DNA from: Streptomyces sp. P9-A4
GTDB taxonomy: Bacteria; Actinomycetota; Actinomycetes; Streptomycetales; Streptomycetaceae
Length of the DNA: 64,000 nt
NCBI RefSeq assembly: GCF_036634195.1
Contig: NZ_JAZIFY010000001.1
Span: 6,768,501 to 6,832,500 of the forward strand
Reading direction: 5' to 3'
Both the position numbers and the translations under genes were made by a program. Under the pieces are notes generated by a model. It was not told where the DNA came from and searched no databases. It saw nothing but the letters and a program-made list of their open reading frames with translations. Numbering within the stretch: the stretch's first letter is position 1; the number at the start of each line of letters is the position of its first letter. This document shows positions 12,362-17,016 of the stretch, in pieces.

Positions 12362-13024
12362 CTAGCGGGAGGCCACCATGCGGGCGTAGACGACCACGTT
12401 GCCGTCGTAGCCACGCGCGCGCGTGTAGCCGCCCCCGCAGGTGATGACCCGCAGCTCGGGCTGACCGTTGTCTGCATAGACCTGTACGCCGGGGAAGTCG
12501 TTCTTCGCGTACACCTCGACCCCGTAGATCTCGAAGACCGCGACCCGGCCGTCGTACCGGTCGACCTCGATGTGCTGGCCCTTCTCCACCGAGCCCAGGC
12601 CGTAGAAGACCGCTGGCCCCTTCGCGTTGTCGACATGGCCGACGATCACCGAAGTGCCGCGCTGGCCGGGGGAGATGCCGTTCTGGTACCAGCCGGCGAG
12701 GTTGGTGTCCTGGGGCGGCGGGGCCGCCACCCAGCCGTCCGCGTCCAGGCCCACGTCCATGATCGGCGCGGCGACCTGGATCGCCGGGATCCTGATCCGG
12801 GAGGCCGGGGCGAAGGTCAGCGGTTCCAGTCCGTTGCTCGCGCCGGGTGGCGGCGGGGTGACGGTCCGGGCCACCGGACGGGCGGCCGCGGCGGGCTGCG
12901 GGGGACCGAGCGCGACATCCACTCCGTTGCGCATCATCGCGAGCCCCGACAGCATGGCGAGGGCCAGGACGCCCCAGGGTCGGCGTCTCCTGCGCTCGAA
13001 GACGCGGAAGTCCTTCGCGGGCAT
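12362..13024 (-). CDS. Class F sortase
   Basis: 220 residues. One N-terminal TM segment (about 17-35), a Pro-rich spacer, then the sortase barrel: RIRIPAIQVAAPIMDVGLDADGW, the catalytic His in VIVGHVDN, the catalytic Cys in LRVITCGG and a C-terminal Arg in VVVYARMV. The spacing and PPPQDTNLAGWYQNG are typical of actinobacterial class F. Such enzymes cleave a C-terminal sorting signal and attach the protein to the cell wall. Two small surface proteins lie upstream, on opposite strands, and are the natural substrate candidates. Start ATG 13024 follows GAAGGGAGAACC. Confidence 0.93.
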   Translation of the reverse strand: MPAKDFRVFERRRRRPWGVLALAMLSGLAMMRNGVDVALGPPQPAAAARPVARTVTPPPPGASNGLEPLTFAPASRIRIPAIQVAAPIMDVGLDADGWVAAPPPQDTNLAGWYQNGISPGQRGTSVIVGHVDNAKGPAVFYGLGSVEKGQHIEVDRYDGRVAVFEIYGVEVYAKNDFPGVQVYADNGQPELRVITCGGGYTRARGYDGNVVVYARMVASR

Positions 13025-13403
13025 GGTTCTCCCTTCATGGCGTCGTCAGAACGGTAGATCCGGTCTGACGGACCGTCATTCCGGACGGTCCGAACGGGTG
13101 GGGGAGGCCGCCGGACGGAGGTCTTCGGGGCGCACGGCGGACCGGCCCGCCGGCTCACCGGCCGCGACAGGCGGGTGACAGGGCGCTGACCCATCCGAGT
13201 AATCGTCAGATAAGCGACCCGGAAGCCTCTGACCTGCTGTTCCGTCCGCTCCAGGGGGTCGATCCCGGGCGTGTCGCCTCACCGGGGTGGACCAGTGTCG
13301 ACATGCACAGCTCGCCCCGGCTTGTGATGGTTCGTCATGGAAGGCGTACTCGTCGAAACTCCCGGAGCACCGCTTTGGGGCGTCTTCCACTGGAGGTTCA
13401 ACC
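13025..13403. other. 379-bp divergent intergenic region, sortase / surface protein A
   Basis: No gene is supported here. It holds the promoters of the sortase and of the first surface protein. A perfect 8-bp inverted repeat, GGACCGTC (13070-13077) and GACGGTCC (13084-13091), lies 46-67 bases upstream of the sortase start and could be an operator. I could not assign a sigma-factor signature. Confidence 0.5.
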
Positions 13404-13886
13404 ATGCGTGCTGCACGCACTCTGGCGGTGACCGCCACCGCAATCGCGGCGGTCGGGCTCGCGGCCCCCCTCGCCGTCGCCACCAACGGTCCGAGCAACG
13501 TCACCGTCAACCCCTTCGACGTCCACGCGGGGTCGACGATCACGATCACCGCCAAGGGGTGCGGTCACGGTGGCACGGTGACGTCCAACGCCTTCCCCGA
13601 GACCAGCCTCTCGGTCAACTCCAACGGGCTCTCCAGCGCCATCGCCCGTGTCCACGACAATGCCACCCCGGGCAGCTACAACCTCGCCGTGAAGTGCAGT
13701 GACAACTCCGCGGTGGTCACGCACCCGTTCCGCGTCCTCCCGGGCCGCGGCGCACAGGGCGGTCTCGGCGGCTCGCTCGCTCCCAGCTCCACCGAGATGG
13801 CCGTCGGCGGCAGCCTGGTCGCCGCCGCCGCGCTCGGCGGGGGGCTCTTCATCGCCCGTCGCCGTCGTACGACCGGTGCGGTCTGA
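13404..13886 (+). CDS. Small surface protein A with RGxxGGLGGS-TM-polyArg tail
   Basis: 160 residues. Signal peptide with cleavage near 26 (LAVA). A compact extracytoplasmic domain of about 30-112 has an Ig-like pattern (VTVNPFDVHAGSTITITAKGC) and two cysteines, 53 and 98, probably a disulfide. Then the short motif RGAQGGLGGS (115-124), a hydrophobic helix (about 132-151) and the tail ARRRRTTGAV. This is the architecture of a cell-wall sorting signal but without LPxTG or LAxTG. It is homologous to the protein at 14024-14584. ATG 13404 is preceded by GGAGG at 13392-13396. Confidence 0.85.
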   Translation: MRAARTLAVTATAIAAVGLAAPLAVATNGPSNVTVNPFDVHAGSTITITAKGCGHGGTVTSNAFPETSLSVNSNGLSSAIARVHDNATPGSYNLAVKCSDNSAVVTHPFRVLPGRGAQGGLGGSLAPSSTEMAVGGSLVAAAALGGGLFIARRRRTTGAV

Positions 13887-13913
13887 CCGGCCGTATCTCC
13901 CGGTCGGCCCGCA

Positions 13914-13961
13914 ACGCCCGTCGCCCCCGAGTCCCCGCAGGGACCCGGGGGCGACGGGCGT
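13914..13961. terminator. Strong bidirectional terminator
   Basis: Two 22-base arms (13914-13935 and 13940-13961) with a single mismatch around the loop CGCA, between the convergent stops of the two surface-protein genes. Confidence 0.85.
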
Positions 13962-14023
13962 CCGGATCCCCTCGGGGACCCGGCGAGGGCGCCCGCCGCT
14001 CCGGTCCGGCACGCTCCGCCGCC

Positions 14024-14584
14024 TCAGTGGCGACGTGTACGGGCGGAACGGCGGCGCAGCACGTACGCGCCACCGGCCGCGGCGGCCAGGACGAGCGCGG
14101 CACCCGCGGCCAGTTCGACCGGATCGAGGCCGTCGCCCACCGAGCCGCCGAGGCCGCCCCGCACCCCGCGCGGGGGAGTGAGCACGGTGGAGCTGATCGT
14201 CGGCGTGGCCGTGGGGACGCCGCTGACCGTCAGGGCGACGGTGTCCTGCTCGCCGCCCGTGCAGTTGAAGGAGACCGTGTACACGGCCCCGCGCCGGGCG
14301 TCCTGGTCCACGGTGGCGGTCACCGCCGAGCCCGGTGCGATGGTGGCGGTGTCGAAGACGCCGGCCGAGGCCGTGGCCGTACTGGCGCAGCCGGGCGCGC
14401 TCAGCGTCACCCGGCCGCCAGGAGCGACCAGAGAGGGCGACACGACGAAATCGCCCGGTGCTTTGGCCCGTGCCACCCGCGGGTTCGGTGCGGGGGCGCC
14501 GTCCGCCGCGACGGCGGCGGGGGCGGCCAGGGCGAGGGCGGCCGCCCCCAGCAGGGCAGTGGACGCGGCACGTATCGCGCGCAT
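14024..14584 (-). CDS. Small surface protein B with RGxxGGLGGS-TM-polyArg tail
   Basis: 186 residues. Signal peptide to about residue 27, a short Ala/Pro spacer, then a domain beginning FVVSPSLVAPGGRVTLSAPGC with two cysteines (66 and 108) 42 residues apart, against 45 apart in surface protein A. A Thr/Pro stalk leads to RGVRGGLGGS (139-148), a hydrophobic helix (about 156-176) and the tail LRRRSARTRRH. It is the paralogue of surface protein A; together they bracket a shared terminator next to the class F sortase. ATG 14584 is preceded by a GGAGG ribosome site; the longer frame to 14650 is not needed. Confidence 0.85.
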   Translation of the reverse strand: MRAIRAASTALLGAAALALAAPAAVAADGAPAPNPRVARAKAPGDFVVSPSLVAPGGRVTLSAPGCASTATASAGVFDTATIAPGSAVTATVDQDARRGAVYTVSFNCTGGEQDTVALTVSGVPTATPTISSTVLTPPRGVRGGLGGSVGDGLDPVELAAGAALVLAAAAGGAYVLRRRSARTRRH

Positions 14585-14751: not shown

Positions 14752-15516
14752 TCACCGGGTGACCTGCGGGAACAGGTCGACGAACGGCGCGGCGGTGGCC
14801 GAGATGCCCCGGCCGAACGGCGCGTCGAAGTCCCAGATGAGGAACAACAGGAACGCGATCAGCACGCTGAAGAGCCCGGCGAGCAGCAACTCCCGCCCGG
14901 TCCTGCGGATCTGCAGGGTGAAGATCAGGCCGACCGTCACCAGGGCGCCGATGATCAGACCGAACCACACCACCCCCGGCATGGTCTCCCCGGCGTTCTG
15001 CCCGCGGGCACCCCGGGCGTCGTCGGCCAGCGTGACCTGGTCCACCAGCGGCTGGTAGGCCTGCCCCTCGAAGTCGTTGGCCGGCTGGTAGTCGGTGACG
15101 CTGCGCCGCACCCGGTCGAGCAGCGCGGTGCCCTGCTCGCTCAGCTCGCCGTGCTCACTCATGTGGGTCCACTCGTCGTTGACCACGTAGGAGACGTACG
15201 CGTCGACATCGGCGCGGATGCGGGCGCGGACGTCCTGCGGGTACACCTCCACGCGGGCGGAGATCTCGTGCATCGCCTGCGCCTCCTGCCGCACGGTCTC
15301 CTGGGCGGCCCCACGGGCCTCCCAGACACCGGCGATGGCCAGACCGAGGACGATCGCGTAGATCACGCCGATCATCATCGTCATGTACTCGATGACGTCG
15401 GGGGTCTCGCTGGGGTCGTCGTCCTCGGGGATGCGGCGGTTGTTGATGACGACGATGGCGAGGACGACGGCGCACGCGGCGGCCATCGCAAGGGTGAGAA
15501 CGAGCCATTCAGACAT
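14752..15516 (-). CDS. DUF4239 (bestrophin-like) membrane protein
   Basis: 254 residues, four TM helices: 3-22, about 45-65, about 180-202 and 209-230. The soluble segment between helices 2 and 3 is acidic and helical (ETVRQEAQAMHEISARVEVYPQ, VRARIRADVDAYVSYVVNDEW). This layout and the motif around WEARGAAQETVRQEAQ fit DUF4239, a bestrophin-related group with suspected channel or transport roles; no function is proven. ATG 15516 is preceded by AAGGA. It follows surface protein B on the same strand but with a separate promoter region. Confidence 0.8.
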   Translation of the reverse strand: MSEWLVLTLAMAAACAVVLAIVVINNRRIPEDDDPSETPDVIEYMTMMIGVIYAIVLGLAIAGVWEARGAAQETVRQEAQAMHEISARVEVYPQDVRARIRADVDAYVSYVVNDEWTHMSEHGELSEQGTALLDRVRRSVTDYQPANDFEGQAYQPLVDQVTLADDARGARGQNAGETMPGVVWFGLIIGALVTVGLIFTLQIRRTGRELLLAGLFSVLIAFLLFLIWDFDAPFGRGISATAAPFVDLFPQVTR

Positions 15517-15704: not shown

Positions 15705-16475
15705 TCACTTGGACCGGGGGCGCAGGATCGCCGTCGCGAGCACGGCCGGGGCGGTGATCATCAGCGTCGCGGTGACGACGGATGTGCCGCCCTTGGGCTT
15801 GGTGTGCGTGGCGGGGCGGTAGTGCGGCAGGGCCACGGGCGTGGGGGCCGGGGGCCGGGGCCGTACGGTCGGCGGAGGCGTCGGGGAGGGCGGTGCCGGC
15901 GGCGCGGGAGCGGGCTCCGGCGGCCTCGGGGCCGGAGGCGCGGGGGACGGCGGCGCCGGACGGGGCGTGGGTTCGGCGGCCGGTGGCTTCGGGGCCGGAC
16001 GGGGTGGGCGCGGCGGGGGTGTGGGCGACGGCGGCTCCGGTTTCGGGGACGGCGACGGCGACGGGGACGGGGACGGCGTGGGCGTCGGCGTCGGGGAAGG
16101 CGTGGGTGTGGGTGTGGGCGTGGGTGTGGGGCACGGCGGGGGCGGCTCGGGGTGGCACGGGTTCGGGTGGTGGTGATGCCCGTGGCCCTTGCCCTTGCCG
16201 TTCCCGTGCCGGTCGTGGCCCTTGCCCTTCCCGTGGCCGTCGTTCCCCCGGCCCTGGTTCCCTTGGCCCTCGTTCCCTTGGCCGTTGTCGTTCCCCTGGC
16301 TGTGGTCGTCGCCGTCGTGGCGGTCGCCGGCGACCGCCACCGCGACGTGGGAACCGCCCTGGTCGGTCGAGGCGTAGGCGCAGGCGTCGGCGGCGACCGG
16401 CACGGGGGTGGCAATGAGCCACACCAATGCGAGGGCCGCCAGCGGCCGCGCGAGGAGTGATCCGTACTGAGACAC
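15705..16475 (-). CDS. Secreted proline-rich wall protein with Gly/His/Asn-rich segment
   Basis: 256 residues from GTG 16475. Signal peptide (about 6-30, ending PVAADA), then a segment of GN/GQ/GH repeats with a HHHH run (about 55-105). A cysteine-flanked PCHPEPPPPCP follows, then about 110 residues of Thr-Pro, Ser-Pro and Lys/Ala-Pro repeats, and a C-terminal hydrophobic helix (VTATLMITAPAVLATAIL) with RPRSK. The Pro-rich stretch should span peptidoglycan. The His/Asn-rich part could bind metal ions, but this is only suggested by composition. No enzymatic domain. Start uncertain: no good ribosome site precedes the GTG. Confidence 0.65.
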   Translation of the reverse strand: MSQYGSLLARPLAALALVWLIATPVPVAADACAYASTDQGGSHVAVAVAGDRHDGDDHSQGNDNGQGNEGQGNQGRGNDGHGKGKGHDRHGNGKGKGHGHHHHPNPCHPEPPPPCPTPTPTPTPTPSPTPTPTPSPSPSPSPSPKPEPPSPTPPPRPPRPAPKPPAAEPTPRPAPPSPAPPAPRPPEPAPAPPAPPSPTPPPTVRPRPPAPTPVALPHYRPATHTKPKGGTSVVTATLMITAPAVLATAILRPRSK

Positions 16476-17016
16476 GCCGACGAGCTTGATCAGTGCGGCG
16501 GCGCGCCGGGGTGGAAACGGCCGGGATTCGCCGGATGGAGGGGTTCTCCGGATGCGCTGGTTTGACGTTTCGCCTCCCCGGAGGCGGATTCGCCGCAATG
16601 CCCGGGTATCGACGGACGGCACGTTTACCGAAGTCTGTCGAGTCGGCCCGTTCCGGCCCCAGGGACGATATCTGTCCGGTTGTCGCCCTGTCGGACGGGG
16701 CGGTCAACGGGGCATCCTGCACCGGCGACCGGGCCCCGGCGGCGGCAACGGCCGAGGTGCGGGCGGGACCTGGGAGCGCACCAGGTGCACCGGAGGTCCG
16801 CCGAAGAGTCGACGCACGATCAGATGCACGTGAATGTGCACAGCCTGAAGGCGTGAACTCTTCGTTCCACGAGCACGTGCCAATGGCGTGTGACCAAGAA
16901 CGGACCGCGAATTTCCGTTTCCACTCGCTCTCTCGGCGGGCGATCAGTAGCCTCACCTCGAACACCGGCCACGAACACAGGGCCGCATCCCCCATGGCGA
17001 CTTGTTGGAGACATTG
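16476..17016. other. 541-bp divergent intergenic region
   Basis: No frame here shows coding bias on either strand. The region is less GC-rich than its neighbours near 16820-17000. It contains a perfect 7-bp dyad CGCCTCC/GGAGGCG (16571-16577 and 16580-16586). It must hold the promoters of the proline-rich protein and the methyltransferase/c-di-GMP operon. I could not identify a BldD or WhiG-type site with confidence. Confidence 0.5.

Follow-up and report, generated by a model that had tools for sequence, protein, structure and literature searches.

Next to a class F sortase gene in Streptomyces sp. P9-A4 lie two genes for small proteins, F1 and F2, that end in the manner of sortase substrates. 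The locus raises the question whether this enzyme and its neighbours belong together as enzyme and substrates, and which residues would form the signal. The window, a 64,000-nucleotide stretch of the 7.5 Mb genome, was analysed together with related loci; the closest relatives of the locus are from Streptomyces. According to two excerpted papers, class F sortases have no designated function (PMC6998099) and unknown physiological roles (PMC13251363). The favoured reading, with a probability of about 80%, is that the sortase, F1 and F2 form a private surface-anchoring cassette with a class F signal that would be cut between a P1 glycine and a P1' glycine.

The sortase gene (12362-13024, minus strand) encodes 220 amino acids, with an N-terminal hydrophobic segment read by eye. 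The enzyme scores 206.8 bits against NF033748, above the curated cut-off of 166, and 84.4 against PF04203 (cut-off 26.6). The sequence-only reading had called it a class F sortase adjoining two small proteins, and this is borne out. Candidate catalytic residues are Cys196, His130 and Asn209. In an alignment of 64 class F domains, the corresponding columns are conserved (Cys 64/64, His 63/64, Asn 62/64). Asn209 aligns with the arginine that four class E enzymes from this genome have at the corresponding place. The window enzyme thus has Asn for the catalytic Arg, as the excerpted PMC6998099 reports for actinobacterial class F sortases. A PDB search with the sortase sequence at E 1e-3 gave no match. 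The source genome encodes six class F sortases and at least four class E sortases (cut-off 160), the latter represented by a whole enzyme in L042 (224.6 bits) and by three domain pieces in L041 (173 to 186 bits).

F2 (13404-13886, plus strand, 160 amino acids) is divergent from the sortase gene and convergent with F1 (14024-14584, minus strand, 186 amino acids). F1 and F2 thus face each other, as had been described. Each ATG is closely preceded by GGAGG (F1 and F2) or AAGGGAG (sortase). Between the convergent genes, a strong hairpin at about 13914-13961 has 16+5 pairs, and the fold z-score is -4.36 for 13887-14026. It is perhaps a bidirectional terminator. The 'one terminator' proposed earlier corresponds to this hairpin, which has no T run, and a terminator pattern scan of the F2-F1 gap was negative.

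Both proteins have a signal-like N-terminus, a hydrophobic helix and an Arg-rich end, the signal peptide and the helix being assigned by eye. F2, predicted to be secreted, ends in RGAQGGLGGS followed by helix and Arg, and F1 likewise in RGVRGGLGGS. The nine-residue motifs are GAQGGLGGS (F2 residues 116-124) and GVRGGLGGS (F1 residues 140-148). L[PA]xTG is absent from both proteins. The shared motif RG(A/V)(Q/R)GGLGGS, the helix, the Arg end and the lack of LPxTG or LAxTG therefore agree with the sequence-only reading, as does the single Cys pair, with two Cys in each protein (F2 53/98, F1 66/108). An Ig-like domain had been assigned to both; it is supported for F2, which is probably Ig-like, with a predicted beta sandwich of this kind and moderate structural matches. 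By profile comparison, F1 and F2 are paralogues, as had been claimed (probability 99.4%, E 8.8e-22); plain BLAST finds a weak similarity of 25% identity at E 6e-4. The motif is among the best conserved parts of both proteins. Among nine-residue windows, the one that holds the motif comes 2nd of 178 for F1 and 3rd of 152 for F2, each in an alignment of 26 sequences, and xxGG[LIFV]GG occurs in 118 of the best 120 of 237 F2 homologues.

A Pfam scan of F1 and F2 gave no match. Neither protein has an LPXTG-type pentapeptide or reaches the cut-off of the LPXTG anchor model TIGR01167; F2 scores 11.4, below 15.9, and F1 is not listed. The closest description is the NCBIfam 'GVDTG sorting domain' (NF058571, GVDTG_CTERM), for which F2 scores 16.2 and F1 24.4 bits. 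The window tails match model positions 5-44, including the helix and basic end. A helix and basic end after the motif, in a protein beside a class F sortase, characterise the window pair as well, and matches of the model elsewhere also adjoin class F sortases. The window pair differs by scores below the cut-off of 29 and by Gly instead of Thr at P1. The window box looks like the Streptomyces, Gly-at-P1 form of the wider signal that NCBIfam models as GVDTG. The earlier suggestion of an unrecognised class F sorting motif holds for the sorting-signal position and the association with class F sortases; 'unrecognised' holds only in part, since NF058571 appears to model the same signal. Among the mainly open-access papers examined, none was found that names the motif.

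The register of the signal was derived from tails beside class F sortases. The alignment has 62 rows with two proteins doubled by the overlap of L053 and L067, leaving 60 distinct tails. The columns before P4 are P (52), a variable residue and G (46). P4 is G in 42, A in 8, P in 5, H in 3 and S in 2 tails; P3 is V in 37, A in 10, P in 9, M in 3 and I in 1; P2 is variable. P1 is T in 34, A in 20 and G in 6, and P1' is G in all 60. A variable position, G (55) and G (42) follow. The consensus is mostly G-(V/A/P)-x-(T/A/G)-G. The tails APATG, HPETG and APQTG differ from LPxTG at the first residue only, so the pentapeptide occupies the place of LPxTG; the register is fixed because some tails retain Pro and Thr at the LPxTG places. 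Class F tails share the Gly-ended pentapeptide, helix and basic tail with the LPxTG and LAxTG signals of class A and class E sortases. Pro at P3 (9/60) and Thr at P1 (34/60) recur, whereas Leu at P4 is found in none of the 60, and the window pair has neither L nor P nor T. On this alignment, the core is the pentapeptide at the LPxTG position, G-A-Q-G-G in F2 (13749-13763, plus strand) and G-V-R-G-G in F1 (14153-14167, minus strand), and the following LGGS is a downstream extension. The 'GGLGGS box' of the sequence-only reading is thus part of a sorting-type signal, with its core better drawn as GVRGG/GAQGG. Following the naming in the excerpted PMC5148588, the cut is expected between P1 and P1'. 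The sortases characterised by then all recognised a PxT core according to this source, although class E uses LAxTG. The altered catalytic residue, Asn, beside an altered substrate core is at least consistent with this assignment.

NF058571, a model made independently of this work, was searched over 60 genomes of the same class and gave 90 matches at E 0.01. Matches beginning at model position 5 or before were counted as motif-bearing, those beginning at position 10 or later as helix-only. A class F sortase of at least 100 bits was no more than 3 kb away for 41 of 47 motif-bearing and for none of 36 helix-only matches, counts that are uncorrected for genome kinship. Of the intermediate matches starting at positions 6-9, one of seven was that close, and all 15 matches at the model cut-off were. 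From the side of the enzymes, a neighbouring match was present for 38 of 65 sortases with at least 165 bits and for 3 of 20 with 100-165 bits. No match to motif plus helix was obtained in the 26 genomes without a class F sortase of at least 100 bits; G029, which is among these, had one short match to the motif part. Of the 26 genomes that encode a strong class F sortase, 20 had such full matches; of the other 34, one did, and this single exception carries a 145-bit sortase. In the source genome, 5 of 6 class F sortases have an adjoining NF058571 match at E up to 10.

A profile of our own, seeded with seven source-genome tails and trained in three search rounds over 64 class F loci, found a tail no farther than 2.5 kb from the sortase in 56 of the 64, a count that is partly circular because the profile was built from the neighbours; the remaining matches are the more informative ones. 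It places a tail beside all six class F sortases of the source genome. At E up to 1, two matches were located farther away, both beside another class F sortase. The one control match was not at a C-terminus, and the near match in L048 (7348-8163) was to an internal helix instead of a tail. Among the eight missed loci, L049 and L099 show GGAQTGGG and GGPDTGGGG by eye. In a held-out set of 17 genomes of the same order, limited to 150 candidates per genome and with motif-bearing matches defined by a model start up to 6, 51 of 70 motif-bearing matches had a class F sortase no more than 3 kb away, versus 0 of 30 others. Under the same limit, at least 45 of 75 class F sortases had a motif-bearing match to the profile.

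An earlier detector for tail-type ORFs, based on hydropathy and a loose regular expression, was too noisy and was replaced by the profiles. It counted antisense frames as genes and assigned no neighbour to 24 of 64 loci; its motif rate had a small drop from 29/35 near to 5/12 far from the sortases. In L053/L067 and in L064/L066, from genomes of the same class, a pair of class F sortases is separated by about 4-6 kb, and two to three tail proteins lie between and beside the two enzymes. These look like a multi-substrate cluster rather than one enzyme with one substrate.

The cassette is conserved as a unit. Orthologous loci were taken as the best 80 of 133, with 79 titled Streptomyces and one Microtetraspora glauca. 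F1 and F2 are both kept in the same layout in 76 of these 80. The sortase of L103 is 753 bases from a contig end, and no motif was found there. L120 stops short of F1, and L178 has both motifs with frames shifted after them. L169 departs from its sister contig L174 at a point about 210 bases ahead of the sortase; only L174 has F1 and F2. Both are contigs of Streptomyces griseus NCTC13033, with the sortase in common and different upstream regions. In the sample of the order, the F1/F2 pair is beside a class F sortase in 10 of 11 Streptomyces genomes; the eleventh is without class F sortase. The sequence-only reading had put forward the substrate relation of sortase and F1/F2 and had proposed genomic association with class F sortases as its test. 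The association was found in all three counts (41/47, 51/70 and 76/80), and the relation is very probable.

The P1 residue is clustered on the sortase tree, with 17 changes versus 26.6 after shuffling; such clustering of Thr, Ala and Gly would also arise from a simple joint inheritance of neighbours. All six Gly-at-P1 tails belong to the group of the window (window, L056, L048 and L060). In the sortase tree, the group has a support of 98/94 and comprises the window and L056, both with Gly, L048 and L060, with Ala as well as Gly, and L038, a paralogue from the source genome, with Ala; the Gly-at-P1 sortases are few (n=4). This topology fits a path from Ala to Gly. The F1 proteins of L048 and L060, kin of the window F1 by their ectodomains, have GVHAG and GAHAG; a single site thus alternates between Ala and Gly. 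BLAST groups the ectodomains of the tail proteins into 23 clusters at E 1e-5 and 20 at 1e-3; there may be a remoter kinship among the clusters.

The cassette would operate as follows. F1 and F2 would be exported and held in the membrane by the C-terminal helix. Both would present the class F sorting signal G-(V/A)-x-G-G-L-G-G-S with its first five residues at the LPxTG place. The sortase, with Cys196, His130 and Asn209, would attack the bond that joins the P1 and P1' glycines and form a thioester. The protein would then be handed from the sortase to an amino group of a cell wall precursor, a wall attachment suggested by analogy. Cleavage of G-V-R-G|G by the sortase, with anchoring of F1 and F2 to the wall, is the most likely course; we infer the cleavage and its exact bond from the position of the signal.

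Copies of the motif at a distance from class F sortases bear on how exclusive this pairing is. Twenty distant matches were read, 19 from the held-out set and one from G057. Sixteen had a GVxxG motif, one of these (L182) at a contig end, and four were LAxTG proteins with weak profile matches. Two orphan families recur in other Streptomyces, with RGVMGGLGGA and close forms in L202-L206 and HGVQAGEGGAF tails in L207-L211, about 5-6.6 kb into each stretch. No class F sortase was found near orphans in 12 stretches of about 12 kb. The orphan tails are either substrates served from a distance, or the motif is not exclusive to class F.

The orphan copies would suit F1 and F2 as plain type I membrane proteins, with the glycine box as a flexible or packing juxtamembrane element, and no processing data were found. 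Motif-bearing tails are beside class F sortases in 41 of 47 cases versus 0 of 36 for helix-only matches. The P1' Gly is invariant (60/60), and Pro and Thr occur at the LPxTG places. Plain anchoring is therefore considered unlikely.

Less probable still is that a class E sortase serves F1 and F2 and that the neighbouring class F enzyme has other targets. In the excerpted Streptomyces and Actinoplanes papers (PMC5148588, PMC13251363), the demonstrated substrates are those of class E, and the orphan tails would need some enzyme in trans. Class E signals are LAxTG in the excerpted PMC5148588, and in a noisy scan L[PA]xTG was absent from all 47 tail-type ORFs lying up to 1.5 kb from class F sortases and present in one of six at 1.5-3 kb. 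G066, a Streptomyces without class F sortases, has two profile matches (L198, L212), both LAETG proteins. The two distant profile matches of the source genome (L213, L216) are LAETG proteins as well. With these, the LAxTG proteins of L043 and the class E sortases of the source genome, two codes seem to exist side by side. L043 had been considered as a control, with LADTG and LAATG tails as class E neighbours. It was dropped because its sortase-like gene reaches 69.7 where the class E model requires 160, and because the alignment shows neither the conserved His nor the conserved Cys in their columns. This gene (L043 3955-5187, C1 at about 4.724 Mb of the source genome) is closest to class E, lies beside the two LAxTG proteins and is perhaps a sortase with lost catalytic residues.

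Processing by a different protease, as by rhombosortase on GlyGly-CTERM proteins, is very improbable: the layout of glycines, helix and basic end resembles the F1/F2 tails, but no GlyGly-CTERM model is among the NCBIfam matches (weak ones above E of about 0.1 were mostly filtered), the rhombosortase (TIGR03902) matches of the genome reach 59.7 and 36.7 versus a cut-off of 84 with neither protein near the locus, and the genomic association is with class F sortases. The 59.7-bit protein is a rhomboid-like membrane protein (L041 10291-11682, C1 at about 3.725 Mb of the source genome) a few kb from three class E sortases.

The anchoring cassette of sortase, F1 and F2 can be compared with the few described class F systems. 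No biochemistry was found in the literature examined for a class F enzyme-substrate relation of this kind. In Actinoplanes missouriensis, deletion of all four class F genes gave no phenotype according to the excerpted PMC13251363. The same source suggests AMIS_11010 and AMIS_36440, beside srtF1 and srtF4, as possible substrates. Like F1 and F2, these proteins have a signal peptide, a helix, a basic end and a class F neighbour; in the excerpts, which allow a comparison by description only, they have no recognised pentapeptide and the authors found no motif. The one class F enzyme with a named substrate in the literature examined, the sortase of P. acnes, is reported to use LPQTGE (excerpted PMC7451113), unlike the candidate GVRGG/GAQGG at the window locus; class F enzymes therefore do not all follow GVxTG. 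With less confidence than for the window cassette, we still favour a third anchoring code besides LPxTG and LAxTG for actinobacterial class F sortases (Cys-His-Asn), G-(V/A/P)-x-(T/A/G)-G-x-G-G, mostly in one-enzyme cassettes that include the substrates. P1 would have drifted to Gly in one Streptomyces clade, probably via Ala, with the cut between two glycines.

A search for Streptomyces sortase substrates by the Gram-positive anchor domain yielded 126 candidates, five of them with described motifs, of the class E type (excerpted PMC6998099). F1 and F2 are without Pfam match, so a search of this kind would miss both. With the motif, concrete candidate substrates can be named for most of the class F enzymes examined, which makes the function of these sortases in streptomycetes directly testable. 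If true, a sorting signal with Gly at P1 extends what sortases are known to cut and could serve protein ligation orthogonal to LPxTG.

Two further genes follow beyond F1. A bestrophin-like protein (PF14023) is encoded at 14752-15507 (minus strand), and a proline-rich protein with a C-terminal helix followed by RPRSK at 15705-16622 (minus strand). By eye, L048 and L060 show a similar proline-rich protein close to this sortase locus, and L048 has a further reading frame of bestrophin-like appearance.
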